Below, in pieces: positions 18,926 to 40,229 of a DNA stretch of 64,000 bases. The position numbers and the translations under genes are program-made. The DNA comes from Psychroflexus lacisalsi (GTDB lineage Bacteria; Bacteroidota; Bacteroidia; Flavobacteriales; Flavobacteriaceae), in the NCBI RefSeq assembly GCF_020164495.1, contig NZ_JAIQYZ010000001.1:310001-374000 (forward strand), read 5' to 3'. Under the pieces are notes generated by a model. The model ran no database searches. It was not told the DNA's origin and saw nothing but the letters and a program-made list of their open reading frames with translations. The stretch's first letter is position 1, and each line of letters opens with the position of its first letter.

Positions 18926-18977
18926 AATACATTAGCTATATTTTTCCATACATTACCTATACATTAACCCGTTTTAG
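18926..18977 (+). promoter_or_regulatory. Candidate operator upstream of susC: phased TATAC-like half-sites
   Basis: Half-sites aatac (18926), tatat (18937), catac (18947) and tatac (18958) follow one another at 11, 10 and 11 bp, so they sit on one face of the helix. The core ATACATTaCCTATACA, with a TTTTAG at 18972-18977, recurs with the same spacing at 28930-28959. A role as regulator binding site is inference. Confidence 0.5.
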
Positions 18978-19157: not shown

Positions 19158-22100
19158 ATGGTTAAAAACTTTTTGATAGCGACAATTTGTTTGTTTTCTA
19201 TGTGGACGTATTCACAAGAAAAAGACATTGAAGGAAATGTTTCAGACGACGAATCTGGAATGCCCTTATTAGGAGTCAACGTAATTGTTGAAGGAACTTC
19301 TACAGGAACCACAACCGATTTTGACGGTAATTTTACTTTAAAGTCAGTTCCAAACGATGCCACTTTAATTTTTTCTTACCTAGGATTTAAAACTTTAAAG
19401 TTGAAAGTTGCAGAAGCCTCAGACTTTAATGTCAAATTGGCTTCGGATACTCAAGCTTTAGATGATGTGGTTGTTATTGGTTACGGTAAAAGTAGCAAGC
19501 GGAAAGTGACAGGTGCTGTATCTACCGTAAACTCCGAATCTATTCAAGATTTAGAGCCTGTCAATGCAGCAACTGCTTTACAAGGTACTTCTGCCGGTGT
19601 CAATGTAACCCCACAATCTGGATCCCCGGGTGCTGAATCTAACATTAGAATTAGAGGTGTTTCCACCAACGGTAACAGTTCTCCACTTATTATTCTTAAC
19701 GGTTTTCAATACGACGGTGGTCTTAATTCCATAAACCCACAAGATATTGAGACTATTACGGTCTTGAAAGATGCTCAGGCTGCTATTTATGGTTCTATCG
19801 GTGCAAATGGTGTTGTTCTTATTGAAACCAAAAAAGGTAGCAAAAATACTGCTCCAGAAATTACTTACAACACCTACGTAGGTTTACAAGAAACAACAAG
19901 AAAGCTTCCTTTGCTAAACAGCAATGAGTATGCACTTCTTATCAATGAAAAATATGCTAATGCAGGACAATCTTTGCCTTTTTCAAATCTAAACAATATT
20001 GAAAACGATACAGATTGGCAAGATGCTGTTTTAGAGACCAGCGCTGTGGTAAGTAATAACTTTGCCATAAGAGGTGGTTCTGAAAAAACAAATTACTCGT
20101 TTAGTGCTTCTCACTTAGATCAGAAAGGTATTGTAGCTCCAGATAAATCAAATTTTAAACGGACTACGGCAAACTTATCGATAAACACCGAAGTAAAAGA
20201 CTACCTTAATATTCAGGCAAATGTTATTTTTACGAATAACAGATCTCAGGGTATAAATTCATTTGGTTTGGGTTCGGTTTTATTTAATGCTCTAAACATT
20301 GCTCCTACAATTAATCAAAATAGAAATAATTTAGATGGGACTATAGACTTAGGAAATGAAGTAGTAAACCCACTTACTCAAATCAATAATACTTTTAATG
20401 ATTTTGAGAGTAACCGTTTAAGTGGTAATGTGGTAGCTGAGTTAGAGTACATTCAAGATTTTGAATTAACTGCCCGTTATGGTTTTAATTCCTCAAAACT
20501 TAACAACAGACAATTTTTCCCTGAATTTAATTTTGGAACGGGAAAAGTATTTAATAGACCTGTCAATCAAGTCGATCTGGATCAGCAAGATTTTTATGAT
20601 TACACATTTGACTTGTTCAATACCATAGAAAAAACATTTTTTGGTGAATTGGACGTCACAAACACAACAGGTTTAACCGTGTTTAGGTCTCATGGAGAAG
20701 GTTTATTTGGTTCTAGAACAGGCGTTCTAAGGAATAGCTATGACTTTGCTGACTTAGGTTCTGCTACTGGTGTTGGAGAAGGAAATCAAACTAATGGATC
20801 ATTTGTAAGCGAGTTTAGAAGATTATCTTACTTCACAAGATTTGAATTTGATTATCAAGATAAATATTTGTTTTCGGCCATATTAAGAAGGGATACTTCA
20901 TCTCGATTTGGACCTAATAATTCTACTGGATGGTTTCCTTCAGTAACAGCCGGATGGTTATTGACTGAAGAGGATTTTATTGGAACTAATGATATTTTAA
21001 ATTTTGCTAAGCTAAGAGCAAGTTACGGTGAACTTGGAAATGACCAGATTGGAGATTTTCTCTTTTTATCTGTTCTGAGTGGTGAAGCAGAGTACTTATT
21101 TGGTCCAGACCAAGGTCTGACTACTGGACAAGCTCTAGGTCCCTTAGCTAATCCAAGCGTGAAGTGGGAAACCGCTAAGAAATTGGATATAGGTCTAGAT
21201 CTTCAATTATTCAATAATGACCTGGACATAACATTAGATTATTACGATAACACAAGGGAAGATCTACTGATACCAGGAATACCAACCTCAGGTATATTTG
21301 GAATAGCAGCTCCAGGGAGCTCTGCTCCAACCATCAACGCAGGTACAGTTAAAAACACTGGTTTTGAAGCCACATTGGGATATAGTAAAGATTTTAGTGA
21401 TGACTTTTCATTCTCTATCAATTATAACGTAAGTACTATCGATAACGAGGTTACTCAAATTAACGGTGCAGAGTTCCTAGAAGGTGGCCAGTTTAGTGTA
21501 GGTCAGCAACCTCCATCCAGAATGGAAGTAGGATTACCTTTAGGATATTTTTACGGTCTTAAGACTGATGGAATATTCCAGTCTCAAGCTGAAGTAGAGG
21601 CACATCCTTCTCAATCTCAACTTGCAGGTGTTGAAGCTAGTCCTGGTGATTTAAGGTTTGTAGATACGAACGGAGATGGTGTTATAAGTCAAGATGATAG
21701 AACGTATATTGGTGACCCAATACCAGATGTAACCATGGGTCTGAATTTATCTTTTACTTACAAAAACTTCGACTTTAGCGCTTATTCTTTTGCTAACTTA
21801 GGCAATGAAATTGTAAGAAATTTTGAAAGAGATCAGATCAACGTTAATATGTTAAGTAGACGATTAAATCGTTGGACAGGTCCTGGGACCTCTTCTACAG
21901 AGCCTCGAGTGACAACTGGAGCTACAGCCAATAAATTATTTTCAGACTATTTTGTTGAGGACGGTTCCTTTTTAAGAATACAAACCATTTCTCTGGGTTA
22001 TAATGTTCCCGTTGAAAACTTAAAGGCTTTTGGTATCAATGGAGTTAAAATTTATGCTAAAGTTGATAACGCATTTACCTTTACAGAATACTCCGGATAC

Positions 22101-22202
22101 GATCCTACAGCCTCCACAGGAGCTCCAATTGGAGGAGGAATTGATCTTGGATTCTATCCGCTGCCAAGAACCTATACACTTGGACTAAATGTTAAACTTT
22201 AA
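19158..22202 (+). CDS. susC: SusC/RagA-family TonB-linked outer-membrane transporter
   Basis: The importer takes glycan oligomers across the outer membrane with its SusD lid. Its 1014 residues show a signal peptide (to about residue 20), then a carboxypeptidase-regulatory-like domain (22-105, IEGNVSDDESGMPLLGVNV, TTTDFDGNFTL). A plug domain follows (about 105-235, DDVVVIGYG, IRIRGVSTNG, ITVLKDAQAAIYGSIGANGVVLIETKKG), then a long barrel ending PRTYTLGLNVKL. These are the SusC hallmarks. It is the first gene after the regulator, with 236 bp of control region. Expected substrate is a beta-1,3-glucan, from the neighbouring enzymes. Confidence 0.97.
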   Translation: MVKNFLIATICLFSMWTYSQEKDIEGNVSDDESGMPLLGVNVIVEGTSTGTTTDFDGNFTLKSVPNDATLIFSYLGFKTLKLKVAEASDFNVKLASDTQALDDVVVIGYGKSSKRKVTGAVSTVNSESIQDLEPVNAATALQGTSAGVNVTPQSGSPGAESNIRIRGVSTNGNSSPLIILNGFQYDGGLNSINPQDIETITVLKDAQAAIYGSIGANGVVLIETKKGSKNTAPEITYNTYVGLQETTRKLPLLNSNEYALLINEKYANAGQSLPFSNLNNIENDTDWQDAVLETSAVVSNNFAIRGGSEKTNYSFSASHLDQKGIVAPDKSNFKRTTANLSINTEVKDYLNIQANVIFTNNRSQGINSFGLGSVLFNALNIAPTINQNRNNLDGTIDLGNEVVNPLTQINNTFNDFESNRLSGNVVAELEYIQDFELTARYGFNSSKLNNRQFFPEFNFGTGKVFNRPVNQVDLDQQDFYDYTFDLFNTIEKTFFGELDVTNTTGLTVFRSHGEGLFGSRTGVLRNSYDFADLGSATGVGEGNQTNGSFVSEFRRLSYFTRFEFDYQDKYLFSAILRRDTSSRFGPNNSTGWFPSVTAGWLLTEEDFIGTNDILNFAKLRASYGELGNDQIGDFLFLSVLSGEAEYLFGPDQGLTTGQALGPLANPSVKWETAKKLDIGLDLQLFNNDLDITLDYYDNTREDLLIPGIPTSGIFGIAAPGSSAPTINAGTVKNTGFEATLGYSKDFSDDFSFSINYNVSTIDNEVTQINGAEFLEGGQFSVGQQPPSRMEVGLPLGYFYGLKTDGIFQSQAEVEAHPSQSQLAGVEASPGDLRFVDTNGDGVISQDDRTYIGDPIPDVTMGLNLSFTYKNFDFSAYSFANLGNEIVRNFERDQINVNMLSRRLNRWTGPGTSSTEPRVTTGATANKLFSDYFVEDGSFLRIQTISLGYNVPVENLKAFGINGVKIYAKVDNAFTFTEYSGYDPTASTGAPIGGGIDLGFYPLPRTYTLGLNVKL

Positions 22203-22206
22203 ACGA

Positions 22207-23706
22207 ATGAAAATGGCAAAGACAATATATAACCAATGGTTCATGATTTTAATGGCATTAGCCTTAGTATCATGCTCAGACGATTTTGTGGAACTAGAAC
22301 CACCTTACCGACTTACCTCAGAAAACTTTTTTGAGGATGAAGAAGACTTTCAAAACGCATTGATTGGCTCCTATGATATTTTGCAGTCTACTTATGTTAA
22401 TGTTATTCTTGGAGAAATTGCTTCAGACAATACGCATGCCGGAGGAGAAAGTGCAACCGACGTTGTAGGATGGCAGCAGGTAGATAGAATGGCTCATACC
22501 CCAGATAACAATAATCTGGATGATATTTGGGATTTCAATTTCGCTGGTGTTTACAGAGCATCTTATATCATTGAAAATGCTGATAAGATAGATTTTGAAG
22601 GTAAGGAGCAAATTATTGCTGAAGCACGTTTTTTAAGAGCTTATTTCAATTTTGAACTAGTAAAATGGTTCGGGGCTATACCTATTAAGCCAGAAGGTAA
22701 ATTTGAACTAGGTGAAGAAACATCTCTGCCCAGAACATCGATTGATTTAGTATACCAATATATCGAGAATGATCTTTCTCTGGCCATACCGAATATGTCT
22801 TCCCAGGCTTTAGAAATAGGACGAGCTTCCAAAGCTTCTGCCCAGGCACTTCTTGGTAAGGTGCACTTGTACCAAGATGAATTTAATCTAGCGGCCCCTT
22901 TGTTTGATGCTGTTATTGGTTCACAACAGTTTCATTTGTATGGAACAGAAGGCGATGAAGAATACGAAGACCTTTTTGAATTTGAAGCTGAAAATAGTGC
23001 AGAATCTGTTTTTGAAATTCAATATTCCGGTCAAGCCCAAGGAGCTAGTTTTGATTGTTTACAATGTAGTGAAGGTAATGTCATGGTAGGATTTAGTGGT
23101 GTAAGAGGCTACAACGGTCCTGTCTTTGAATCTGGATTTGGCTTTAATTTACCTACTGAAGAAACTTATAATGCCTTTGATTTAGACGACTTAAGAAGAG
23201 ATGTTTCTATCTTGAACATTGAAGCTTGGGCTGCAGACACAGGAGCAACTTTTACCATAGGAAACCAAGACCCTACAACAGGTCATACCGGGTATTACAA
23301 TAGAAAGTATATCCCTAGACAAAATGATAATTTAGGGGATGCTAATTTGACACAGCCAAACAATTACAGAGCTATCCGTTATGCTGATGTTCTATTGATG
23401 GCAGCTGAAGCTTTAAATAGAGGAGGTATCAACGATCAATTAGCATTAGATTATGTGAACGAAGTTCGTGAAAGAGCAGGATTAGATGATGTGAATTTAT
23501 CAGGAGGCCAGTTAACTGAAGAGATATATACTCAAAGACGACTAGAGCTTGTAGGTGAAGGACACCGTTTCTTTGATTTAGTGAGAACTGGAAGAGCAGC
23601 CAACGTGATTGATGGATTTACTCCAAACAAAAATGAAGTTTTCCCTGTACCACTTGAAGAAATTCAATTTTCTCAAGGAAATTGGGAACAAAACGCAAAC
23701 TACTAA
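22207..23706 (+). CDS. susD: SusD/RagB-family surface glycan-binding lipoprotein
   Basis: This is the lid of the SusCD importer at the cell surface. From ATG 22207 the signal ends at a lipobox (ALVSC, Cys23). Conserved SusD blocks follow: TSENFFEDEEDFQNALIGSYD, EARFLRAYFNFELVKWFGAIPI, RASKASAQALLGKVHLY, NNYRAIRYADVLLMAAEALNR, YTQRRLELVGEGHRFFDLVRTG, and NEVFPVPLEEI near the end. The length of 500 residues is normal. The start at 22207 is 4 bp after the susC stop; the open frame reaches back to 22189 within susC, but the signal peptide supports the internal ATG. Confidence 0.96.
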   Translation: MKMAKTIYNQWFMILMALALVSCSDDFVELEPPYRLTSENFFEDEEDFQNALIGSYDILQSTYVNVILGEIASDNTHAGGESATDVVGWQQVDRMAHTPDNNNLDDIWDFNFAGVYRASYIIENADKIDFEGKEQIIAEARFLRAYFNFELVKWFGAIPIKPEGKFELGEETSLPRTSIDLVYQYIENDLSLAIPNMSSQALEIGRASKASAQALLGKVHLYQDEFNLAAPLFDAVIGSQQFHLYGTEGDEEYEDLFEFEAENSAESVFEIQYSGQAQGASFDCLQCSEGNVMVGFSGVRGYNGPVFESGFGFNLPTEETYNAFDLDDLRRDVSILNIEAWAADTGATFTIGNQDPTTGHTGYYNRKYIPRQNDNLGDANLTQPNNYRAIRYADVLLMAAEALNRGGINDQLALDYVNEVRERAGLDDVNLSGGQLTEEIYTQRRLELVGEGHRFFDLVRTGRAANVIDGFTPNKNEVFPVPLEEIQFSQGNWEQNANY

Positions 23707-26420: not shown

Positions 26421-28694
26421 ATGAATTTTAAACATTTTATTTATATGAGTATTGCTATACTCATTTTATCTTGTCAGCAAAACCCTGCAAATATAAATTC
26501 CTCCAAAACTATCGACGCCCAAGTGCAAGAGCTTTTGGCTAAAATGACTCTGGAAGAGAAAATTGGCCAGATGAACCAGTACAGTGGGTTTATGGATTTT
26601 ACAGGTCCTGAGCCCGACAAAGGTCAAGCTGCAACCAAATTGGATCACATCAAAAAAGGCTGGGTCGGGTCAATGCTAAATGTTCATGGAGTCGAAAATG
26701 TAAGAGCTGTTCAAAAAATAGCCGTCGAAGAGTCGAGGCTCGGGATTCCTCTTGTGTTCGGTTTTGATGTTATTCATGGTTATAAAACGATTAGTCCTAT
26801 TCCTCTTGCCGAAGCCGCCAGTTGGAATTTGGAAGCTATAAAGCGTTCTGCAGAAATTGCTGCAGAAGAAGCATCAGCTGCGGGAATTAATTGGACATTT
26901 GCCCCTATGGTAGATATCTCCAGAGATGCCCGTTGGGGTAGGGTGATGGAAGGTGCCGGAGAAGATCCTTTTCTAGGGAGTCAAATTGCTAAAGCTAGAA
27001 TAAATGGATTTCAAGGTGAGGATTTAGCTGCTTCTCATACTATTGCCGCAACTGCCAAGCACTTTGCAGGATATGGTTTTGCAGAAGCTGGTCGAGACTA
27101 CAACACTGTGGATGTGGGGACTACTACTTTATACAATGTGATACTTCCACCGTTTGAAGCTTCACTAGAAGCCGATGTCAAAAGTGTAATGAGTGCTTTT
27201 AACGTTCTTAATGGTATTCCTGCCACAGGTGATCAATTTTTACTCAGGAATATTTTAAAAGACCAATGGGATTTTCAGGGTTTTGTGGTATCCGATTGGG
27301 ACTCTGTTGGAGAAATGGTAAACCACGGTTATGCAGAAGATGGCCGAGATGCGGCTAAAAAGTCTGTTTTAGCTGGAACTGACATGGATATGGAATCTTA
27401 TCATTTCATTGAAGAATTGGCAAGCCTTGTAGAAGCTGGAGAAGTGGATGAGGATTTAATTGATGATGCAGCTAGACGTGTTTTAAAAGTTAAATTTGAA
27501 CTTGGTCTTTTTGAAGACCCTTACAAATATTTATCCAAAGATCGTGAAAACGAATTAGTGTACAGTCCGAAATTTAAAGATGAGGTTTCAGATATTGCAA
27601 GACGATCTATTGTTTTACTCAAAAACGATAACAATATTTTACCACTTAAAAAATCAAATCGAAAGATTGCTATAATTGGCGATCTCGCTCAGGATAAAAC
27701 TTCACCACTAGGAAGCTGGAGAATAGCTGCTGACGACGGAACAGCTGAGCCTTTGGTGGAAGCTATGCAAGCCTATGAAGCTAATAATACAATCAATTAC
27801 ACAGCTGGTCCCCAGCTTATTATAGGAGAAACCAAATTTGTAAAAGAACTTAAGGTTAACACAACAGATAGATCAGGTTTTGATGAAGCGGTGAAAAGCT
27901 CTAAAAATGCCGATGTTGTAATTATGAACCTTGGCGAACATGGTTTGCAAAGTGGAGAAGCAAGGAGCAGAACAAGACTTGGATTACCTGGATTACAACA
28001 GGAGTTATTAGAAGCGGTTTATAAAGTAAATCCCAACATCGTTTTAGTACTTCAGAATGGTCGACCGCTTACCCTCAATTGGGCAGAAAAAAATATCCCA
28101 GCTATTGTAGAGGCCTGGCAACTTGGTTCATTTAGTGGTTCAGCAATTGCTCAGGTGCTTTATGGTGATTATAATCCTAGCGGTAAGTTGCCAATGAGTT
28201 TTCCTCGCCATGTGGGGCAACTCCCTTTGTATTACAATCATTTATCTACTGGAAGACCAAATGATCCTAATCAAAATGATGTCTTCAGGTCTCATTACAC
28301 AGACGAATTGAATACACCACTCTATCCTTTTGGTTTTGGATTAAGCTATACTAACTTTACTTACAACAATTTTAAGGTGACTACGCAAACCTCCTCAAAC
28401 GCTATCGAAGTCACTGTAAATGTTGAAAACAGCGGAGATATGGACGGCACAGAAACTGTACAGGTCTACATCAGAGATTTGGTTGCTCAAATTTCAAGAC
28501 CGGTAAAAGAGCTCAAAGCCTTTCAACAGGTAAAGATCAAGGCTGGTGAGAAAGTAAACTTAACGTTTACTCTAACTGAAGAAGATCTTGGATACTATTT
28601 GCCCAACGGCGATTGGATTTTTGAAAGCGGTGAATTTGAAATATTTCTAGGAAGCAATTCACAGGATACTAGCTCGAAGCTTATAGAATTATAA
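26421..28694 (+). CDS. bglX: GH3 beta-glucosidase, BglX type, lipoprotein
   Basis: This enzyme would remove terminal glucose from beta-linked oligosaccharides in the periplasm. Its 757 residues begin with a lipobox (ILILSC, Cys18). The N-terminal GH3 barrel contains LLAKMTLEEKIGQM, KHFAGYG (about 213-219) and the nucleophile in GFVVSDWD (Asp292). The C-terminal GH3 domain includes the LGEHGLQSGEARSR loop and GKLPMSFPR. A fibronectin III-like domain ends the protein (about 655-757). In this locus it would finish laminarin oligomers to glucose for the sugar porter at 14718. It stands as its own unit after a strong terminator. Confidence 0.95.
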   Translation: MNFKHFIYMSIAILILSCQQNPANINSSKTIDAQVQELLAKMTLEEKIGQMNQYSGFMDFTGPEPDKGQAATKLDHIKKGWVGSMLNVHGVENVRAVQKIAVEESRLGIPLVFGFDVIHGYKTISPIPLAEAASWNLEAIKRSAEIAAEEASAAGINWTFAPMVDISRDARWGRVMEGAGEDPFLGSQIAKARINGFQGEDLAASHTIAATAKHFAGYGFAEAGRDYNTVDVGTTTLYNVILPPFEASLEADVKSVMSAFNVLNGIPATGDQFLLRNILKDQWDFQGFVVSDWDSVGEMVNHGYAEDGRDAAKKSVLAGTDMDMESYHFIEELASLVEAGEVDEDLIDDAARRVLKVKFELGLFEDPYKYLSKDRENELVYSPKFKDEVSDIARRSIVLLKNDNNILPLKKSNRKIAIIGDLAQDKTSPLGSWRIAADDGTAEPLVEAMQAYEANNTINYTAGPQLIIGETKFVKELKVNTTDRSGFDEAVKSSKNADVVIMNLGEHGLQSGEARSRTRLGLPGLQQELLEAVYKVNPNIVLVLQNGRPLTLNWAEKNIPAIVEAWQLGSFSGSAIAQVLYGDYNPSGKLPMSFPRHVGQLPLYYNHLSTGRPNDPNQNDVFRSHYTDELNTPLYPFGFGLSYTNFTYNNFKVTTQTSSNAIEVTVNVENSGDMDGTETVQVYIRDLVAQISRPVKELKAFQQVKIKAGEKVNLTFTLTEEDLGYYLPNGDWIFESGEFEIFLGSNSQDTSSKLIEL

Positions 28695-28928
28695 TAATCA
28701 AGATGTATAGTTGAAAAAAAGAATAAAATCTTCATTTTTAAAATTGATTTGATAATCTTTTTCATTCAAACTACTACTTGTGTATATTTTATAAGCTATT
28801 TATAATTAAATGTTATTTATTTAATATAATAAGTACGGAATAAACAATGTATTGATTAGGTGATGACTAAAATCTTTGTTTTTTGATTGTAGTAATTTCA
28901 AATTCTCTTTTTTTAAACAGTTTGCATC

Positions 28929-28959
28929 TATACATTTCCTATACAAAACATCTTTTTAG
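28929..28959 (+). promoter_or_regulatory. Candidate operator: TATAC-N6-TATAC direct repeat plus TTTTAG
   Basis: TATAC at 28929-28933 and 28940-28944 are 11 bp apart, and TTTTAG follows at 28954-28959. The element matches the one upstream of susC in the core (ATACATTnCCTATACA), in the TTTTAG spacing and in distance to the start codon (about 200 bp in both). Confidence 0.5.
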
Positions 28960-29146: not shown

Positions 29147-32100
29147 ATGAAAAAATTTCTAACTGCAATCGCTTTTTTACTTCTTACGAACTTTAGTTTT
29201 TCTCAGGCTCATGAGGTAAAGGTCAGCTCTAATGAGCAAGGAATGAAGCTTCAAGTAGATGGTGAAGATTTTATGGTAAATGGTATGAACTGGGATTATT
29301 TTCCAAGAGGAACAAATTTCAGCTATAGCCTTTGGGAACAATCCGATGATATAATCCAAGCAGCGCTCGACGCGGAGATGGGTTTGCTAAAAAATATGGG
29401 GGTTAATACGGTAAGACTTTACACTGGCATCCAGCCAAAATGGATCACTTACATTTATGAAAATTATGGGATCTATACCATGCTCAACCATTCTTTTGGT
29501 CGGTATGGATTGACGATAAACGGATTGTGGACACCTGTAACTAAATACGATGATCCAGACACTAAAGAATTGCTGCTTTCAGAAGTTAATGAACTAGCTG
29601 AAAATTACAAAGATACTCCAGGGCTTCTGCTATTCCTGTTAGGTAACGAAAACAATTACGGGTTATTTTGGGCAGGTGCCGAAACTGAGGATTTTCCCGA
29701 CGAGGAAGATCAAATCAATGCTGTTGGTGAAGTTAGAGGTCGTCCGATGTATCGCCTCATGAATGAAGCAGCAGTAAACATGAAGGAAATCAATAGCAAT
29801 ATTCCAGTTGCAATTTGTAATGGCGACGTTCTCTTTCTTGATATTATCGCTGAAGAATGCCCTGATGTAGATATTTATGGAACCAATATGTACAGAGGAG
29901 CCTCATTCGGAGATGCTTTTCAAAAAGTAAAAGAGGTCTACGGTAAACCTATTTTATTTACAGAATTTGGAGCAGATGCTTTTAACGCCATTGAAATGCA
30001 AGAAGACCAGAAATCTCAGGCTTATTATATGGTGAATAACTGGAAAGACATCTACGCAAATGCCGCAGGACTTGGAAAAGCTGAAAATTCTATTGGAGGA
30101 TTTACTTTCCAATTTAGTGATGGTTGGTGGAAATTTGGACAGACAGATAATTTGGATGTTCACGATTCAAATGCCTCTTGGGAAAACGGAGGATATGACA
30201 GAGATCATAAAGAAGGTAAAAATAATATGAATGAAGAGTGGTTTGGAGTGTGTGCCAAAGGTCCAACTAATGCAAGAGGTTTGTATGACTTATATCCTAG
30301 GGCTGCTTATTACGCTTTAAAAGAAGCGCATGAACTCAATCCTTACGATGAAAATGCCAATGGACTAACCGTGAACAAACATTTTGAGGACATCTCTTTA
30401 ATGGATGCTGTATTAAGGGCTAGAGGGGACAAAGCCGCTTTAGGTGGCGGGGAAACTCAAAAGGTTGGAATTAGCAGAGTAGCAGCTCATTTATCTACCT
30501 TTTATACAGGGGGTAGTTTAATTACAACACCAGACAATCCAGATCCAAACTCCACTTCTTATCCCAATCAATTGGGTTTTGACCAGATGCAATCCTATTT
30601 TATTGGTGTGGGTGGTAAACCTGCAGCTAATGTCACTTTCAATGTGGACTTCAACATTGTTGGAGATGTCGCTGAAAACCCAATCAACGAAATTTTTTAC
30701 GAAAATAGGGCGAGACCCATTCGAGTCCAAACTCCAGATGGAGAAACGATAATTCAAGACAATAATAATTTACAGGTTTACCAAGCTGAGTTTGAATGGA
30801 ACAACGATCTATTCGACTTAAGAGGATTTTACAGAACAGGTCACTATCATTGGGGTTACGAAGGTGATTTTTTTGGTTTATATCCTGAAGCTAACTATGG
30901 TCCAAACTTAGATATCTATGGAGGTATAATTTCGGGAATAGAGATTGACGCCAAAGGAGAACTTGATGGTTTAAAAGCCGCTATTGGACCTCAATTGTGG
31001 TGGGGTGCCAATCCTACCATGCTTTATAAATATACCAAGACCATTCAAAAATGGGATGTGACAGGAATTTACCATAGAGACTTAGAAACAGAATTAGAGT
31101 TTGACGATAACGGACGTAGGATATTAGATCAGAATCAGGTGCGAAGTGGTGTGATTCCACCATGGCCTCAGGAAAGAGCTACATTGGCTCTAGAAAGAGA
31201 TTTTGGAAAATTTGGATTGACAGTAGGTGGTATATGGGCAGGAAGCCCGCTGAACGGAAGTACTTATCAAGATATCGATGATAACGGCAACGTAGTAGTT
31301 GATAATGTTAAAGCGTCCGATAATTGGGGAGGTAAAGCTAAACTGACTTACGAAGGTGGTAAATTTAACTGGTATGCACAAGGAGGTGTCTCAGGGCTTG
31401 TAGCCAATGGGGGATTCGATCCCACATTAACTTTCACAGGTTGGAAATTAAAAGATAATGGAAGTGGTAACCAATCCAATTTTTTATCTGGTTTCACTTA
31501 TAATATAGGGAAATGGCAAATTGCCCCAAATTTTTTATGGCAAAAGCCTTTGGTAGATGCTATGCCGGACAATGGTGATGCGCCAGGTCGATTAAGAAAT
31601 TTTATCGATGATCCATTTGCTGTTCGTTTTAATAGAGAAACTACAGCCGGTGAAATTCTCTTCACCTTCGACCCTACTCCTGGAACTTACATGTATGACT
31701 GGGATAACAATAGATCTGAGGATGCAGAATTTGCAATGAGTGCAGGTTTTGTATTTAGACACTTACCGACGACAATGGATGCACATATTGGTTTCCTCGA
31801 TACTCGTGAGTTTTTTCCTTTTGCTAACACTGTCCCAGCTCAGGATTTATGGGAAGCTCACGCTAGAATGGTTTCAAGTTTAGGGCCTGATCTTAGTATC
31901 GTGGGTACATTTTATTATGGAAACGGTCAGGCTAATGGAGATTCTGATCGATTAGTGACCGATAGGTTTGGAGCCAATCTCGACGTGAGGTATAAAAAAT
32001 ATTGGATTAGAGGGGATGTGAAAATCAACGATTGGGGACCTTACGATTACCACAGGGATTTCAACTTAACTTTCCCAATCCAAACCATGATTGATTTGTC

Positions 32101-32317
32101 AACTACATTAGGGAAACCAGAATGGTATATTTTGCCCACCACACAAGTTGGTATAAGAGGAATATGGCGGTCATTAAATGAATTTTCTCCCAGATATTCA
32201 CCCAATGCAACACCGATTGGTTCCTTCGATACTAATCCAGCAATTAGTCCAGTAGGCTTTCCTGATGGTTCTGAATGGGAAATCATGACTTATGTAAGAT
32301 TTAATATAGGTAAATAA
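29147..32317 (+). CDS. Clan GH-A glycosidase fused to a putative outer-membrane beta-barrel
   Basis: The 1056-residue protein has a signal peptide (1-19, FSFSQ). The N-terminal part (about 30-400) is a TIM-barrel glycosidase of clan GH-A, like GH2/GH5/GH72. FMVNGMNWDYFP is at 42-53, GVNTVRLYTG at 85-94, the acid/base is in LLGNEN (Glu168), and the nucleophile is in LFTEFGAD (Glu273). From about residue 440 to the end the sequence changes to alternating amphipathic strands (QAEFEWNNDLFDLRGFYRTG, FGLTVGGIWAG, LDVRYKKYWIRGDVKIND), ending MTYVRFNIGK, as in outer-membrane barrels. I infer an enzyme tethered by its own barrel. It heads the second PUL operon; beta-glucan activity is inferred from context. 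Confidence 0.75.
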   Translation: MKKFLTAIAFLLLTNFSFSQAHEVKVSSNEQGMKLQVDGEDFMVNGMNWDYFPRGTNFSYSLWEQSDDIIQAALDAEMGLLKNMGVNTVRLYTGIQPKWITYIYENYGIYTMLNHSFGRYGLTINGLWTPVTKYDDPDTKELLLSEVNELAENYKDTPGLLLFLLGNENNYGLFWAGAETEDFPDEEDQINAVGEVRGRPMYRLMNEAAVNMKEINSNIPVAICNGDVLFLDIIAEECPDVDIYGTNMYRGASFGDAFQKVKEVYGKPILFTEFGADAFNAIEMQEDQKSQAYYMVNNWKDIYANAAGLGKAENSIGGFTFQFSDGWWKFGQTDNLDVHDSNASWENGGYDRDHKEGKNNMNEEWFGVCAKGPTNARGLYDLYPRAAYYALKEAHELNPYDENANGLTVNKHFEDISLMDAVLRARGDKAALGGGETQKVGISRVAAHLSTFYTGGSLITTPDNPDPNSTSYPNQLGFDQMQSYFIGVGGKPAANVTFNVDFNIVGDVAENPINEIFYENRARPIRVQTPDGETIIQDNNNLQVYQAEFEWNNDLFDLRGFYRTGHYHWGYEGDFFGLYPEANYGPNLDIYGGIISGIEIDAKGELDGLKAAIGPQLWWGANPTMLYKYTKTIQKWDVTGIYHRDLETELEFDDNGRRILDQNQVRSGVIPPWPQERATLALERDFGKFGLTVGGIWAGSPLNGSTYQDIDDNGNVVVDNVKASDNWGGKAKLTYEGGKFNWYAQGGVSGLVANGGFDPTLTFTGWKLKDNGSGNQSNFLSGFTYNIGKWQIAPNFLWQKPLVDAMPDNGDAPGRLRNFIDDPFAVRFNRETTAGEILFTFDPTPGTYMYDWDNNRSEDAEFAMSAGFVFRHLPTTMDAHIGFLDTREFFPFANTVPAQDLWEAHARMVSSLGPDLSIVGTFYYGNGQANGDSDRLVTDRFGANLDVRYKKYWIRGDVKINDWGPYDYHRDFNLTFPIQTMIDLSTTLGKPEWYILPTTQVGIRGIWRSLNEFSPRYSPNATPIGSFDTNPAISPVGFPDGSEWEIMTYVRFNIGK

Positions 32318-32325
32318 TATTCAAG

Positions 32326-33768
32326 ATGATACAGAAAAAATATATTCAATTTATAGCACTTGTTGTCCTTTCTATGATAGTGACTACAAGTTGTGAACGA
32401 GACGTATCCGACGATGCGGTATTGGCCACTTTTCCTTCTAATGCAGACGTTTATTCTGATAATCCTGAAGGATTAACAGATGAGTTTTTCATCTCCTTTA
32501 ATCCTGTCGATGGGGCAAACCCTGAAGGTTTTGGAACTGATCAAAATGAAGCTTACATGGGGACTTCTTCAATAAGACTAGATATCCCTGCACCAAATGA
32601 TCCTGATGGTGGTTTTATTGGTGGTATTTTTAAAGATAGAGGTGAAGGAAGAAATTTGACAGAGTATGATGCTTTAACCTTTTGGGTAAAGGCTTCAAGA
32701 ACCGCACTTTTTGATGAAGTTGGTTTTGGGTTCGACTTTGAATTGGACAAATACACAGTGGCGAGGGCAGGTATACCATTATCAACAGATTGGAGAAAAG
32801 TAACCATACCAATCCCAGACCCATCAAAATTGGTTCAAGAAAAAGGAATGTTTTTCTTTTCAACAGGTACCTCAAGTACAGATGGTGTTGGATTTACAAT
32901 TTGGATAGATGAGATAAGATTCGAAAATCTAGGAACAATAGCCCAACCTCAACCAAGAATTTTAAACGGTCAGAATGTTTCGCAACAAGGCTTTCTTAAT
33001 GTGCCTTTTCAACTCACTGGACTTACTCAAACATTCAATGTGGAAACCGGTAGAAATGTAAGAGTTAATGCAGCCCCTTCTTTTTTTGATTTTGCGTCTT
33101 CAAACCCTGGAGTTGCTACAGTTGACGAATTTGGCCTGGTTTCAGTTATAGGTGTAGGCGAAGTGACAATATCTGCCTCTTTGGATGGTGTTGGAGCTCA
33201 AGGCTCATTGTCGCTCAATGTAGAGGGGGGATTCAATTTTGCTCCGGTTCCAACACGGCCCGAAGAAAATGTTGTTTCTATATTTAGTGATGCCTATCAG
33301 GATATACCAGTTTCAAGATACAATTCATTTTTTGAGCCCTTTCAAAACACGCTTGGCGGTGTTGTCCCGGTTGGACCAGAATCTATAATAAGTTATTCAG
33401 ATCTAAATTTTGTAGGCATTGTCTTTAATGATGTCACCTTCCCATCAGAAGCAGTTCAACCTGTTAATGCTGCTAATTTGACTCATTTACATGTAGATAT
33501 TAATGTTCAAGAAGCTATTCAAGCCAACGACAGATTATTGTTACAGCTTACAAATTATGGTGCTTCAGAAACAGTGGGCTCTTTTTTAATATCTGGAAAT
33601 CAATTAGTCGAAGACCAATGGGTCAGTTTTGATATTCCTTTATTGGACTTTTCGGGACTTGGGGATAAAAACAGAATTGGTTTACTGCTTTTTAACTCTG
33701 AAAATGGGCCTGATAATCCAACGATATCCAACTTATTTTTAGATAACATTTATTTCTATACTGAATAA
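32326..33768 (+). CDS. Lipoprotein with CBM-like, bacterial Ig-like and shared glycan-binding modules
   Basis: The 480-residue protein has lipobox Cys23 (VTTSC). Residues about 40-202 look like a jelly-roll binding domain (DALTFWVKASR, DEVGFGFDF, WRKVTIPIPD, IWIDEIRFENLG). Residues about 215-300 are a Big_2-like Ig domain (SSNPGVATVDEFGLVSVIG). Residues about 305-480 are a copy of the module found twice in the 23719 product (NVVSIFSDAYQDIPVS, LTHLHVDI, WVSFDIPLLDF, LDNIYFY). No catalytic signature is seen. It is probably a surface binding protein partnering the GH-A/barrel enzyme (8 bp upstream) and the GH16 enzyme downstream. Confidence 0.75.
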   Translation: MIQKKYIQFIALVVLSMIVTTSCERDVSDDAVLATFPSNADVYSDNPEGLTDEFFISFNPVDGANPEGFGTDQNEAYMGTSSIRLDIPAPNDPDGGFIGGIFKDRGEGRNLTEYDALTFWVKASRTALFDEVGFGFDFELDKYTVARAGIPLSTDWRKVTIPIPDPSKLVQEKGMFFFSTGTSSTDGVGFTIWIDEIRFENLGTIAQPQPRILNGQNVSQQGFLNVPFQLTGLTQTFNVETGRNVRVNAAPSFFDFASSNPGVATVDEFGLVSVIGVGEVTISASLDGVGAQGSLSLNVEGGFNFAPVPTRPEENVVSIFSDAYQDIPVSRYNSFFEPFQNTLGGVVPVGPESIISYSDLNFVGIVFNDVTFPSEAVQPVNAANLTHLHVDINVQEAIQANDRLLLQLTNYGASETVGSFLISGNQLVEDQWVSFDIPLLDFSGLGDKNRIGLLLFNSENGPDNPTISNLFLDNIYFYTE

Positions 33769-33785
33769 ATATAAACCTATTGACT

Positions 33786-34646
33786 ATGAAAATAAATAAA
33801 GATAGTAAACTCAATATGGTGAAATATCCACCAATTTTTCTATTAATATTAATATGCGTATTGAGTTGCGATTTAGATGAAACCCAAGAAGTGGTTACAC
33901 TTGACAACTTGGTGTGGGCTGATGAGTTTGACACCGATGGTGCTCCAAATCCAGAACATTGGAACTTTGAAATTGGCGATGGTACAAAACAAGGCATACC
34001 GGGTTGGGGTAATAATGAATTACAATATTACACCGATAGACCACAAAATGTGAAAGTTGAAAATGGCGTATTGCTCATCACTGCCAGACAAGAATCCTTT
34101 GAAGGCAATAATTATACTTCTGCGCGATTGACCACTCAAAATCTGTTTGAACAAAAATATGGTCGATATGAAGCGCGGATCAAAGTACCTTATGGAAAAG
34201 GTTACTGGCCTGCATTTTGGTTATTGGGTAATGACTGCGATGTTAATCCATGGCCTGCTTGCGGAGAAATCGATATTATGGAATACTTAGGCGATGAGCC
34301 AACTTCAGTTTTTAGTACAATTCATGGGCCTCAATATTCTGGAGCTGAATCTATTTCTAAAGAATTTAGTTTAGAAAATGGCAGATTTGATACTGATTTT
34401 CATGTTTATGGAATGGAATGGTCACCAAATCGCATCAATTTTTATGTAGATGACGTTTTATATCATTCACTAACGCCAGAAGATGTAGATGAAGAAACTA
34501 ATGGCACCGGAAACTGGATTTTCAATGATAGAGCATTTTACATCATTCTCAATGTAGCCGTAGGTGGTAATTTGCCAGGAAACCCGAATTCAGAAACCGT
34601 TTTCCCTCAAAGCATGGTTGTGGATTATGTAAGAGTTTACAATTAA
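33786..34646 (+). CDS. GH16 endo-beta-1,3-glucanase (laminarinase), lipoprotein
   Basis: This endo-enzyme cuts internal beta-1,3 bonds of laminarin. From ATG 33786 the product has 286 residues. The hydrophobic signal ends at lipobox Cys28 (CVLSC). The GH16 catalytic signature EIDIMEYLG gives Glu161, Asp163 and Glu166. Substrate-cleft blocks are PGWGNNELQYYTDRPQNV, GRYEARIKVPYGKGYWPAFWLLG, FHVYGMEWSPNRINFYVDD and ILNVAVGGNLPGNP. These are typical of GH16_3 laminarinases. An in-frame TTG two codons upstream (33780) is a less likely start. It is anchored by lipid, probably at the cell surface. Confidence 0.94.
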   Translation: MKINKDSKLNMVKYPPIFLLILICVLSCDLDETQEVVTLDNLVWADEFDTDGAPNPEHWNFEIGDGTKQGIPGWGNNELQYYTDRPQNVKVENGVLLITARQESFEGNNYTSARLTTQNLFEQKYGRYEARIKVPYGKGYWPAFWLLGNDCDVNPWPACGEIDIMEYLGDEPTSVFSTIHGPQYSGAESISKEFSLENGRFDTDFHVYGMEWSPNRINFYVDDVLYHSLTPEDVDEETNGTGNWIFNDRAFYIILNVAVGGNLPGNPNSETVFPQSMVVDYVRVYN

Positions 34647-35459: not shown

Positions 35460-38400
35460 ATGATTCAAGAAGACAACAAGACTCAACAATCAACTAAAGA
35501 AAGTGCATTGGAACAAGTGAGATTAAATGGTGAGAAGTTCTTAAAAATCACCAATAATGATTCACTACGCCCATTTTTTATGAGTATAGTAAGCGATTCC
35601 AACCACTGGATGTTTATATCGAGTAATGGAGGACTTACAGCAGGACGACGTAATGCAGATTTTGCACTTTTCCCATATTACACAGATGATAAAATTACTG
35701 AATCTGCCCATTACACTGGTAGTAAGACCATTTTCAAGGTACATAGTAATGCTGGCTTTCAGATATGGGAGCCCTTCTCCAACAGGTTTTTAGAGCAATA
35801 TCAGATTACAAGACATTTGTACAAAAATATCTATGGTAATAAACTGATGTTTGAAGAAATCAACCATAGTTTAAACTTGAGCTTTACCTATAGGTGGTCT
35901 TCGAGCGATAAGTATGGTTTTGTAAAAACTTCTGAAGTGATCAACCATAATCCATCTTCCGTCAAAATTGAAGTTTTAGATGGTCTTCAAAATGTATTGC
36001 CTGCTGGCGTAGTCAGCGATTTACAAAATCAGAGCAGCAATCTTGTTGATGCGTATAAACGTAACGAGCTCGACCAAAACACGGGCTTAGGTATTTTTGC
36101 CCTAAGTGCTGTACCAGTAGACAAAGCTGAACCCAGTGAAGCCTTAAAAGCAAATGTAGTTTGGCAATTGGGTCTCGAACAACCATCCTATCTGTTGTCC
36201 TCTCTACAGCTTGAAAAATTTAGAACTGGACAGGACATTCACCAAGAAACTGATGTCAAAGCTGAAAAAGGCGCTTATTTTGTTCACAAAACCCTTCAGC
36301 TAGAGCCTGATGAGAAAAAGACATGGCTTATTGTCGCCGATGTCAATTATAATCATGCTTCAGTGGTTAAACTTCAACAGGATTTACACCATGAAAATCT
36401 TTTCGACACCATTAAAGAGGATATTTTAGCGGGTACCGAAAAATTGATTCGACTCAATGCTGCAGCTGATGGACTCCAACGTTCTAATGATAACTTAAGA
36501 GACATTCGTCATTATGCCAATACCATGTTTAATATTATGCGTGGTGGAATCTTTGATAATAATTACCAAATAGAAGGATGGGACTTTAGAGATTATTTGT
36601 CTAAAGCCAATGAGCCTCTAGCTAAAAAACTGGAATCCAAGTTAAAAGCTTTACCAGTGGAATTTCCTTTAAGCCAATTGAAAGCACTTGCACATTCTAT
36701 TAATAATGAAGATCTTACAAGGCTTTGTACAGAGTATTTACCATTGAAATTTAGCCGTAGACACGGGGATCCGAGTCGACCTTGGAATCAATTCTCCATT
36801 AATACCAAAGATGAACAAGGCCATAAAATTTTAAATTACGAAGGTAATTGGCGTGATATTTTTCAGAATTGGGAAAGTCTCGCACATTCCTACCCGGAGT
36901 TTATCGAAAGCATGATCTATAAATTCCTGAACGCAACTACATTTGATGGGTATAACCCTTATCGGGTAACCAAAGATGGCTTCGATTGGGAAACTATAGA
37001 ACCAGACGACCCATGGTCTTATATTGGTTATTGGGGAGATCATCAGATCATTTATTTGTTGAAATTTTTAGAGTTTTATGAAGATTATCAGCCTCAAAGC
37101 TTAGCCAAGCTATTTAAAAAATCTGAATTCGTTTATGCGAATGTTCCCTACAGAATTAAATCTTACCAGGATATTTTAAACGATCCAAAGGATACCATAG
37201 ATTTTGACCATAAGGCGGATTCAAAAATCAGAGATAAACGTGAAAAAATTGGAGCAGATGGGGCTTTACTTCAAACCAAAAGAGGTAAAATAATCCACGT
37301 CAATTTCGTTGAAAAGATATTAGCAACAACTTTGGCTAAGCTATCCAACTTTATTCCAGAAGCTGGTATTTGGATGAACACCCAACGTCCGGAATGGAAC
37401 GATGCTAACAATGCTTTAGTAGGAAACGGTGTGTCTATGGTAACACTATCCTATTTGAGACGATTTTTAGATTTCTTCAAAACGATTTTTGAAAATGCTG
37501 AGGCCGATGAAGTTTATTCAATTTCAGAAGAATTGGCACAGCTTTTTACAAAAATGAAAAATACCTTCATTACTCATTATGATCTTACAAAATCTGGTTT
37601 TAATGATGCTCAGCGTAAAGTTATTTTAGATGAATTAGGTGAGGCTGCCAGTCATTACCGAACTCAGGTGTATTCCAAAGGATTTTCAGGAGATAAAACT
37701 GAGCTTTCTGTGAAAGAAATTATAGGATTTATTAAAACAAGTATAGATTATTTAGAGCATTCTATCCAAGCCAATAAGCGAACTGACAATTTATACCATG
37801 CCTATAATTTAATGACAGTTGAAGACGATAAAGTCTCTGTCGATTATCTTTCAGAAATGCTTGAAGGTCAAGTGGCTGTTTTAAGTTCAGGTTACTTAGA
37901 TTCAGCTCAGTCTTTGAAATTGCTGGACGCTTTAAAGCAAAGTGACTTATTTAGACCAGACCAATTTAGTTATTTGCTTTACCCATTCAAAAACTTAAAA
38001 GGCTTTTTGGAACGTAATCATGTTCCTGAAGCTTCAGTAAAATCTTCTGAATTGCTTCAAAAATTAGTTGAAGATGGCGACAGACGAATTATTGAAAAAG
38101 ACATTAAAAGTCAGTATCACTTCAATGGTAATTTCAATAACGCTAAGAAGTTAAAACAAGCATTGCTTACACTTAAAGGTGAAGCAGCTTACTCAGGTTT
38201 AGTTGAAAAAGAATTGAATTTGATTCTGAAAATTTACGAAGAGGTCTTCAATCATAAATCTTTCACGGGACGTTCGGGAACATTTTACGGCTATGAAGGT
38301 TTAGGCTCCATCTATTGGCATATGGTTTCAAAACTGCAATTGGCGGTTCTAGAAACTTGTTTAGATGCTATAAATCATGAAGCATCGGCAGAAGTAGTTG

Positions 38401-38915
38401 GCCGTTTACTGGAGCATTACTATGAAATCAACGAAGGTATTGGCGTACATAAATCTCCAAAACTTTATGGTGCTTTTTCCACAGATCCATACTCACATAC
38501 CCCTATCGGGAAAGGCGCACAACAACCCGGTATGACAGGTCAGGTGAAAGAAGATATTCTAAGCCGCTTTGGTGAATTGGGTGTTCAGGTCAAAAAGGGA
38601 AGACTCCAGTTTCAACCCTATCTCCTAAGAAAAACTGAGTTTTTGGATGAAGTGCATGTTTTTAGATATGTGGATTTAAATAATGATAAGCATAAAATGG
38701 ACTTACATCCTGGTTCATTAGGATTTACCTTTTGTCAGGTGCCAATTGTTTATATCATGTCTGCCGAAAGCAAAATAAAAATCGAAATGAGCGATGGTTC
38801 ATCTGAAACCACTAATGGCCTTGGGCTTTCTAAGGCAATTAGCCACGATATTTTCCAAAGATCTGGTCAGGTGAAATTGATCACAGTTTACGTAGAAACC
38901 TCCATTTTAAAATAA
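35460..38915 (+). CDS. GH149-like beta-1,3-oligoglucan phosphorylase
   Basis: This large soluble protein of 1151 residues has no signal peptide, so it is cytoplasmic. Length, Trp-rich blocks and context fit GH149, the GH94-related phosphorylases that turn beta-1,3-gluco-oligosaccharides plus phosphate into glucose-1-phosphate. Landmarks are MSNSNHWMF-like N-terminal blocks (SDSNHWMFISSNGGLTAGRRN), YEGNWRDIFQNW (about 460-471, Asp466 a candidate catalytic acid), DPWSYIGYWGDHQIIYLL and GRSGTFYGYEGLGSIYWHM. A GH94-type or uncharacterised phosphorylase is the alternative. It saves ATP by yielding Glc-1-P from imported oligomers. It is 40 bp after the CBM gene and 8 bp before the GH17 gene. Confidence 0.75.
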   Translation: MIQEDNKTQQSTKESALEQVRLNGEKFLKITNNDSLRPFFMSIVSDSNHWMFISSNGGLTAGRRNADFALFPYYTDDKITESAHYTGSKTIFKVHSNAGFQIWEPFSNRFLEQYQITRHLYKNIYGNKLMFEEINHSLNLSFTYRWSSSDKYGFVKTSEVINHNPSSVKIEVLDGLQNVLPAGVVSDLQNQSSNLVDAYKRNELDQNTGLGIFALSAVPVDKAEPSEALKANVVWQLGLEQPSYLLSSLQLEKFRTGQDIHQETDVKAEKGAYFVHKTLQLEPDEKKTWLIVADVNYNHASVVKLQQDLHHENLFDTIKEDILAGTEKLIRLNAAADGLQRSNDNLRDIRHYANTMFNIMRGGIFDNNYQIEGWDFRDYLSKANEPLAKKLESKLKALPVEFPLSQLKALAHSINNEDLTRLCTEYLPLKFSRRHGDPSRPWNQFSINTKDEQGHKILNYEGNWRDIFQNWESLAHSYPEFIESMIYKFLNATTFDGYNPYRVTKDGFDWETIEPDDPWSYIGYWGDHQIIYLLKFLEFYEDYQPQSLAKLFKKSEFVYANVPYRIKSYQDILNDPKDTIDFDHKADSKIRDKREKIGADGALLQTKRGKIIHVNFVEKILATTLAKLSNFIPEAGIWMNTQRPEWNDANNALVGNGVSMVTLSYLRRFLDFFKTIFENAEADEVYSISEELAQLFTKMKNTFITHYDLTKSGFNDAQRKVILDELGEAASHYRTQVYSKGFSGDKTELSVKEIIGFIKTSIDYLEHSIQANKRTDNLYHAYNLMTVEDDKVSVDYLSEMLEGQVAVLSSGYLDSAQSLKLLDALKQSDLFRPDQFSYLLYPFKNLKGFLERNHVPEASVKSSELLQKLVEDGDRRIIEKDIKSQYHFNGNFNNAKKLKQALLTLKGEAAYSGLVEKELNLILKIYEEVFNHKSFTGRSGTFYGYEGLGSIYWHMVSKLQLAVLETCLDAINHEASAEVVGRLLEHYYEINEGIGVHKSPKLYGAFSTDPYSHTPIGKGAQQPGMTGQVKEDILSRFGELGVQVKKGRLQFQPYLLRKTEFLDEVHVFRYVDLNNDKHKMDLHPGSLGFTFCQVPIVYIMSAESKIKIEMSDGSSETTNGLGLSKAISHDIFQRSGQVKLITVYVETSILK

Positions 38916-38922
38916 ATAAGTC

Positions 38923-40206
38923 ATGAAGTCAGCTATACAAAGCTTTTTAGCTTTAAGTTTAGTTCTACTGGCTTCTTGCCAACAATCTCAAAAAGAGCCT
39001 GAATCAATGCAAAAAGATAAAAATTTAACTGCAAAAGAGATTTTCAATAAACCAGAATACCTAGCCATTTCTTATGGGGGTTACCGTGAAAATACTCGAA
39101 ATATACAACCTGAGATAAGTGAACTTAAGGAAGACTTAAGGATTTTACACGCAATGGACATTAAGGTATTAAGAACTTACAATGTTCGTTTACCCCATGC
39201 AGCCAACGTTCTTCAGGCCATTAAGGAACTTAAAAAAGAACATCCCGATTTTGAAATGTATGTCATGCTAGGTGCATGGATAGATTGTAAAAATGCGTGG
39301 ACCGAGTTACCACTCAACCATAACGAAGAAAGTGTGCATAATGCAACTGAAATCGAAAGAGCTGTAGAACTGGCCAATCAATTTCCGGATATTGTAAAAA
39401 TTATTGCTGTAGGAAATGAAGCTATGGTGAAATGGGCGGAAGCTTACTACGTTCAACCTCACATTATTTTAAAATGGGTCAAACATCTTCAGGCTCTTAA
39501 GGAGGAAGGTAATCTCAATAAAGATCTCTGGATTACAAGTTCAGATAACTTTGCGTCTTGGGGAGGTGGTGAAAGTGAATACCATACTCCAGAACTGGAA
39601 GAGCTTATTAAAAGTGTAGATTACCTCTCTATCCACACGTACCCGATGCACGACACACATTACAATCCGGTATTTTGGGGAACTTTACATAAGGAAAGTG
39701 AGCTAAGCAATACCGAAAAGATTGATAAAGCGATGAATCGTGCCTTGAGTTATGCAATTTCACAATATGACAGTGTTGCCAGCTATATGAAAACTTTGGG
39801 GGTAAACAAACCTATTCATATTGGAGAAACAGGCTGGGCAAGCTTCTCAAATGGGCATTATGGTCCTGAAGGATCTAAAGCTACAGATGAATACAAACAA
39901 GCATTGTATTATGATAAAATGCGGGAATGGGCCACCAAAAACAAAATAAAGTGCTTTTATTTTCAAGCATTTGATGAGCCATGGAAAGATGCGCAAAACC
40001 CAAGAGGATCAGAGAATTATTTTGGCATATTTACCGTAGAAGGCAAAGCCAAATATGTGCTCTGGGATACAGTAGATGAGAGTGTTTTTGAAGGATTGGA
40101 AAGAGGTGACCAACCCATTATTAAAACCTATGATGGTAAAATCGAGGACTTACTCTTAGATGTTAGTATGCCTCCGGTTAAAAAAGAAATTAATGTGAAC
40201 CATTAG
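38923..40206 (+). CDS. GH17 beta-1,3-glucanase-like lipoprotein
   Basis: The 427-residue protein has lipobox Cys19 (LLASC). The GH17 TIM barrel shows LAISYGGYREN near 47-57, the acid/base in IAVGNEAMV (Glu166), SIHTYPMHD, and the nucleophile in HIGETGWASF (Glu302); FYFQAFDEPWK is near 360. GH17 enzymes hydrolyse or transglycosylate beta-1,3-glucan. It is lipid-anchored in the periplasm or on the surface. It belongs to a run of tightly spaced genes from 29147 to 45157. It is distinct in sequence from the two cytoplasmic-side GH17 domains further right. Confidence 0.88.
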   Translation: MKSAIQSFLALSLVLLASCQQSQKEPESMQKDKNLTAKEIFNKPEYLAISYGGYRENTRNIQPEISELKEDLRILHAMDIKVLRTYNVRLPHAANVLQAIKELKKEHPDFEMYVMLGAWIDCKNAWTELPLNHNEESVHNATEIERAVELANQFPDIVKIIAVGNEAMVKWAEAYYVQPHIILKWVKHLQALKEEGNLNKDLWITSSDNFASWGGGESEYHTPELEELIKSVDYLSIHTYPMHDTHYNPVFWGTLHKESELSNTEKIDKAMNRALSYAISQYDSVASYMKTLGVNKPIHIGETGWASFSNGHYGPEGSKATDEYKQALYYDKMREWATKNKIKCFYFQAFDEPWKDAQNPRGSENYFGIFTVEGKAKYVLWDTVDESVFEGLERGDQPIIKTYDGKIEDLLLDVSMPPVKKEINVNH

Positions 40207-40229
40207 TTGAATGATTAAAAATCCATATT

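Follow-up and report, generated by a model that had tools for sequence, protein, structure and literature searches.

Among the closest described systems, the SusC/SusD importer shares with the locus reported here an outer-membrane barrel and an adjacent lipoprotein in a glucan locus. The protein that we describe differs, however, in having neither a plug nor a carboxypeptidase-regulatory-like domain and in carrying an enzyme in the same chain, and its partner lipoprotein matches no Pfam SusD family. According to PMC11345257, more than 10% of the CO2 fixed each year is accounted for by laminarin, SusC/D proteins are induced on laminarin in Maribacter proteomes, and the transport of laminarin by SusC/D still lacks a direct biochemical assay. 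Clusters that contain GH149 and lack susCD pairs are described in a section of PMC5827456, as is a laminarin locus without susCD in one of PMC10108472.

The joining of a glycosidase to a membrane protein has already been published, as an inner-membrane parallel. In the section of PMC6246565 that concerns the MFS-GH17 fusion of marine Flavobacteriia (FORMB_24740), a glycosidase is likewise combined with a membrane protein proposed as a sugar carrier in the laminarin pathway. That protein is an inner-membrane 12-helix transporter, whereas the fusion described here has a predicted outer-membrane barrel and an unrelated enzyme domain. The GH158/GH157 endo-beta-1,3-glucanases (BuGH158 6pal, GH158(Pro) and LaGH157) share with our protein the catalytic Glu motifs and an occurrence in beta-1,3-glucan loci, but the solved proteins have no barrel. 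A search of titles and abstract openings in the open-access literature turned up no glycosidase-barrel or porin fusion apart from the MFS-GH17 paper. The barrel family, its fusion and its pairing with a lipoprotein appear undescribed in that literature, the ideas of an enzyme-transporter fusion and of a barrel paired with a lipoprotein being already known.

The window analysed here is the whole stretch of 64,000 nucleotides from Psychroflexus lacisalsi. The gene of interest, referred to as the fusion, encodes in order a signal peptide, a clan GH-A TIM barrel and a C-terminal predicted outer-membrane barrel (Table 1).

Table 1. Coordinates of the fusion, its parts and the surrounding genes in the window
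Feature	Position	Strand	Basis
Regulator with Y_Y_Y domain, Reg_prop and LuxR-type HTH matches	16066..18921	+	
SusC and SusD genes, same locus as the fusion	19158..23706	+	
GH3	26421..28694	+	
Direct repeat CTATACA-N3-CTATACA, candidate regulator site	28928..28945	+	
Whole fusion gene, 1056 aa	29147..32317	+	single match in own genome
Signal peptide, residues 1-19, type I-like, without lipobox; mature start Gln20	29147..29203	+	sequence by eye
Clan GH-A TIM-barrel glycosidase domain, residues 24-400	29216..30346	+	models, structural and profile matches
Glu168 codon, predicted acid/base	29648..29650	+	invariant in 41 aligned sequences
Glu273 codon, predicted nucleophile	29963..29965	+	invariant in 41 aligned sequences
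Helical segment, residues 406-432, C-terminal end of many barrel-less relatives	30362..30442	+	models and relatives
Predicted outer-membrane beta-barrel, about 24 strands, residues 441-1056	30467..32314	+	models, structural matches, strand pattern
Partner lipoprotein, mature start CERDVSDD, Big_2 domain and weak CBM30-like match	32326..33768	+	
GH16, lipoprotein-like start, third member of conserved triad	33780..34646	+	
GH149 beta-1,3-glucan phosphorylase	35460..38915	+	NF058639, 1796 bits
GH17 and GH30	38923..41723	+	
MFS transporter fused to GH17, inner-membrane counterpart	41735..44227	+	

The preliminary description of this DNA had placed a clan GH-A active site at Glu168 and Glu273, and this was borne out, as a GH-A TIM barrel was predicted and both residues proved invariant, together with Gln20, in the same alignment. 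By Foldseek and sequence profile the nearest enzymes were GH158/GH157 beta-1,3-glucanases, with 13-20% identity in structural alignments of the enzyme domain. The domain combines the clan GH-A fold with Glu residues within GNE and TE[FW]G, as required for GH158. Its sequence-profile match to 6pal (GH158) was weak (E 2.1e-6), the best phmmer match of the whole fusion among PDB sequences, GH158(Pro), had an E no lower than 0.12, and NCBIfam returned a single weak match, over residues 25-173. The GH2 TIM-barrel model PF02836 scored around its cut-off of 21 (18.6 bits with the full protein, 22.4 with the domain alone). Membership of GH2 was rejected, none of the flanking GH2 sandwich domains being listed for the fusion by Pfam up to E 1. 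The fusion would be a glucanase with beta-1,3-glucan (laminarin) as its putative substrate.

From residue 441 on, both the full-length and the C-terminal models contained about 24 strands. These have the properties of an outer-membrane barrel, namely an even count of amphipathic strands with short turns on one side and long loops on the opposite one; the C-terminal model has gaps of 7-36 residues (median 27) following odd strands and of 2-20 (median 2) following even strands. The alternation of hydrophobicity along the strands exceeded that of within-strand shuffles (0/2000) and of random windows (1/2000). With each of two structural aligners, Foldseek and VIA, all 50 of the 50 best listed matches were outer-membrane barrels by title, including cobalamin transporters, chitoporin, maltoporin, AlgE, LptD and ushers, the last holding the top seven places by Z among those listed. 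Ushers have 24 strands. The strand count and the pore state are uncertain, since the pTM of 0.68 denotes moderate confidence and the Foldseek alignments in the list reached a TM of just 0.19-0.40 at an rmsd of 12-22.

Could the C-terminal half be a soluble beta-rich module instead? The moderate model confidence and the lack of a Pfam family are compatible with this, but the two models, the structural matches from both aligners, the strand alternation and the loop pattern make it highly improbable, and both models gave a membrane-type barrel rather than a soluble beta-sandwich or propeller. Enzyme and outer-membrane barrel are very probably joined in one chain, as the preliminary description had proposed, and structure prediction of the full protein and of the C-terminal part supports this well. 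On the predicted models the protein is a candidate transporter-CAZyme fusion, in which the barrel would serve transport.

A Pfam scan of 19 barrel domains gave no consistent family, and a profile of the C-terminal part had no match below E 1.4. The plug of TonB-dependent transporters (PF07715) and PF13715 were absent from the fusion up to E 1 and present in the SusC encoded at 19158, and neither an usher nor an autotransporter barrel match was obtained from Pfam for the fusion or its barrel up to E 1. With the required domains missing at this threshold, membership of the SusC, usher and autotransporter families was rejected. The chaperone-usher pores PapC and FimD differ further, no pilus genes being found among those examined here.

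An even number of strands, with the short turns on the same side as both termini, would place the enzyme in the periplasm, provided that the model is correct. The opposite arrangement, in which the barrel brings the N-terminal domain out to the cell surface and glucan is cut there, would resemble autotransporter export. In type V autotransporters the order is enzyme, helix and C-terminal barrel, and the fusion has the same order and the same placement of enzyme and barrel. Their barrel is, however, about half the size of that of the fusion (12 strands in type Va, against about 24), the helix is common to many barrel-less enzymes, and the linker is short for a chain that would have to thread a pore, only about 8 residues separating helix end and strand 1 in the full-length model and 13 in the C-terminal model. 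Together with the lack of a Pfam autotransporter match, these features make such export quite unlikely. The preliminary description had suggested that product would be released at, or through, the enzyme's own channel; strand parity, the short-turn side and the short linker point instead to a periplasmic enzyme, which would more likely cut incoming glucan than release product outside.

Outer loops of outer-membrane proteins are usually variable. Across 19 distant sequences, conservation was 0.77 for lumen-facing positions, 0.75 for outer loops, 0.70 for turns and 0.66 for lipid-facing positions, and the invariant positions numbered 41/140, 89/279, 9/52 and 21/142, respectively. The outer loops thus hold 89 of the 160 invariant positions, yet they also make up 279 of the 613 positions, and in a closer alignment of 61 sequences (A4) they were less conserved (0.79) than lumen and turns (0.83 each). 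This conservation, together with co-inheritance with the lipoprotein described below, suggests that the barrel may be an open channel; an unplugged 24-strand pore would be leaky.

The fusion heads an operon in the order fusion, partner, GH16, PKD-CBM, GH149, GH17, GH30, MFS-GH17 and GH17, with gaps of 3-39 bp. One operon therefore carries both a predicted outer-membrane (29147..32317) and an inner-membrane (41735-44227) enzyme fusion. AlgE and BcsC systems are exopolysaccharide export ports with a trimming hydrolase, and AlgE itself appears in the match lists of the barrel from both Foldseek and VIA. A port of that kind is nonetheless scarcely credible here, as the neighbours are degradative (GH149 phosphorylase, GH16, GH17, GH30 and MFS) and no synthase was found among the locus genes compared with Pfam or NCBIfam.

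The candidate regulator repeat occurs in three intergenic regions, at 18946, 28928 and 45162(-), with 0-2 mismatches; with 1-2 mismatches it precedes the SusC gene and the gene at 45253, and with 3 it lies inside an unrelated ORF. Two other candidate operators were dropped: TGTTTAACAGCGAAAACC, upstream of the fusion, occurs once in the window, and CCTATACAWWAA occurs twice, neither copy preceding the fusion gene. In seven Flavobacterium loci, genes lying upstream of the fusion share 31-36% identity with the protein encoded beside the operon at 45253-46644, perhaps solely through the type IX secretion sorting domain that this protein carries.

The partner lipoprotein has weak profile matches to CBM30 structures (E about 0.006), which suggest that it may bind sugar. 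Its mature start was Cys-Glu-Arg in 22 of 22 aligned rows, rows chosen by the pattern Cys, Glu/Gln/Ser/Thr, Arg/Thr; in other loci it is CQR, CSR or CTR. We compared the neighbourhoods of 141 loci, made up of the 80 best relatives of a genome scan and 61 others; the same species may be present in both sets and, the loci being related, the counts are not independent. L173, L176 and L226 (two partial frames each) and L174 (a partial barrel, lipoprotein present) were dropped before counting. Draft genomes contribute some of the barrel-less rows, and in one barrel-less row, L209, a stop interrupts the enzyme.

For the partner, loci with at least 1.5 kb downstream were taken, which leaves out 8 of the 112 fused and 4 of the 25 barrel-less loci. 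The partner was the next gene in 103 of the 104 intact fused loci, and in the remaining one, L185, a weaker partner match (176 bits) lies directly upstream. None of the 21 barrel-less loci had the partner as next gene, and in 10 of them the GH149 gene directly follows. L195, which is barrel-less and 11 bases short of the limit, matches the partner weakly (97 bits) at a distant upstream site on the opposite strand. Where at least 5.5 kb was available downstream, a GH16 gene lay within 6 kb in 86/88 barrel loci versus 1/12 barrel-less loci.

SusC was found in 22/79 barrel loci versus 0/9 barrel-less loci with at least 6 kb on both sides, and barrel-less loci with shorter downstream stretches carry SusC and SusD (L195, L198) or SusD (L194). 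Since SusCD is present in the window locus and SusC in 22 of 79 barrel loci, the proposed port does not simply replace SusCD, and the barrel-less loci give no mirror image of such a replacement. The earlier idea that an enzyme with its own channel offers an alternative to SusCD is supported by gene neighbourhood only, 57 of the 79 barrel loci having no SusC in the stretch examined (at least 6 kb on both sides), but the window locus has both SusC and SusD.

Relatives are widespread in Bacteroidota, with 281 coding stretches in one genome scan, the best 80 of which were all fused and 62-98% identical over near-whole protein length. In 18 relatives spread over the phylum the barrel retains 49-86% identity. 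A barrel sequence search matched 23/198 phylum genomes (own included), every one in a frame of 1046-1084 aa, and within the family 34/149 genomes gave matches at E <= 10, of which two were traces only (E 0.4 and 0.8). The barrel profile matched 30/296 genomes, with short or cut pieces in three draft genomes (G119, G204, G235), and the enzyme profile 40/296, several as barrel-less proteins. No free-standing barrel gene was found in the genome samples searched. Barrel pieces without a whole in-frame enzyme occurred only at contig ends or in broken frames among those inspected (L173, L174, L176, L177 and L226 by reading; G436 and G355 judged from coordinates). In L173 (G354), a single-contig genome, enzyme and barrel lie in two frames and the partner gene adjoins. 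The draft genome G496 has fused and barrel-less enzyme copies (L205, L214), and the partner lipoprotein adjoins the fused one only.

An IMG/VR scan with the barrel alignment gave 23 pattern matches and no relative, and tblastn of plasmids gave two records, both fused. The triad of fusion, partner and GH16 is present in Bacteroides finegoldii, a human gut species, and in Persicobacter, with no SusC/SusD match in the 29-30 kb around it; in the 29 kb stretch of B. finegoldii neither the 18 listed features nor profiles revealed one. The B. finegoldii annotation reads, in a row, "glycoside hydrolase family 2 TIM barrel-domain containing protein", hypothetical protein and GH16, so that the only annotated relative seen carries a GH2 enzyme label. 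The record of this species that is labelled a plasmid (L234, NZ_OY725931.1) carries the triad together with rpsA and valine--tRNA ligase genes and may be a piece of chromosome. According to a section of PMC13188888, the Muricauda lutaonensis laminarin locus has a GH2 upstream of its GH17 genes; from gene order, it is plausible that this GH2, or the GH0 gene of the laminarin loci in the corresponding section of PMC10108472, is a relative of the fusion.

A tree of 76 enzyme domains required 7 gains or losses of the barrel (7-8 in bootstraps), a number as low as this arising in 0/500 shuffles, and at least 3 of the 7 changes are forced by starred branches. With a midpoint root, barrel-less proteins stand at the base and several barrel losses come later; no star marks the branch above the nearest barrel-less clade. 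The tree hints at repeated joint loss of barrel and partner; transfer of the barrel between lineages is another possible source of the pattern.

The usual end of the signal peptide in barrel forms is a small residue with Gln after it (AQ, SQ, GQ). A lipobox pattern was found in 15/24 barrel-less proteins (one, L213, doubtful), some others, such as L205-L208, retaining the type I form. The pattern also occurred in 8/112 barrel forms, matches which we read as false because the Cys lies inside the hydrophobic stretch of the signal peptide with no acidic residue after it; in one of the signal-peptide scans, 9 of 102 rows, without the motif for cutting the N-terminus, were left unscored. Many barrel-less proteins stop just after the helix that ends near residue 432 in the fusion, and by their sequences many look like lipoproteins themselves. 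Since many barrel-less forms match a lipobox pattern and many share this helix end, a role of the barrel as membrane element is supported and threading of the helix through the pore is disfavoured.

The same exchange of lipobox for barrel is what would be expected if the barrel were mainly an anchor, holding a periplasmic glucanase at the outer membrane in place of lipid while SusCD or other porins perform transport, and the SusCD genes of the window locus and of relatives' barrel loci are also in line with this. A mere anchor, however, need not keep the barrel identity seen across the phylum or so many invariant outer-loop positions, nor need it be co-inherited with a lipoprotein partner, and we consider this explanation unlikely.

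We regard it as fairly probable that the fusion is instead a SusCD-like entry port for glucan, with a built-in enzyme on the periplasmic side and a surface glucan-binding lipoprotein. The GH16 lipoprotein would cleave the polymer outside the cell, and the partner lipoprotein (32326-33768), located on the surface and in contact with the fusion, would bind glucan as SusD does for SusC. Laminarin (beta-1,3-glucan) fragments would then pass through the barrel of about 24 strands, and the N-terminal GH-A domain at its periplasmic mouth would cleave the incoming chains, trapping them and supplying the GH17, GH30, MFS-GH17 and GH149 steps.

More tentatively, and at something short of an even chance, the fusion would represent a third way in which Bacteroidota import glycans across the outer membrane, in addition to SusCD and ordinary porins: a barrel family not yet modelled in Pfam, having its own periplasmic glucanase and a dedicated surface lipoprotein and serving laminarin uptake in loci without SusCD. 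The fusion is a concrete candidate for the outer-membrane step in laminarin or GH149 loci that lack susCD, and it may be an overlooked bacterial route for the uptake of the algal storage sugar laminarin.
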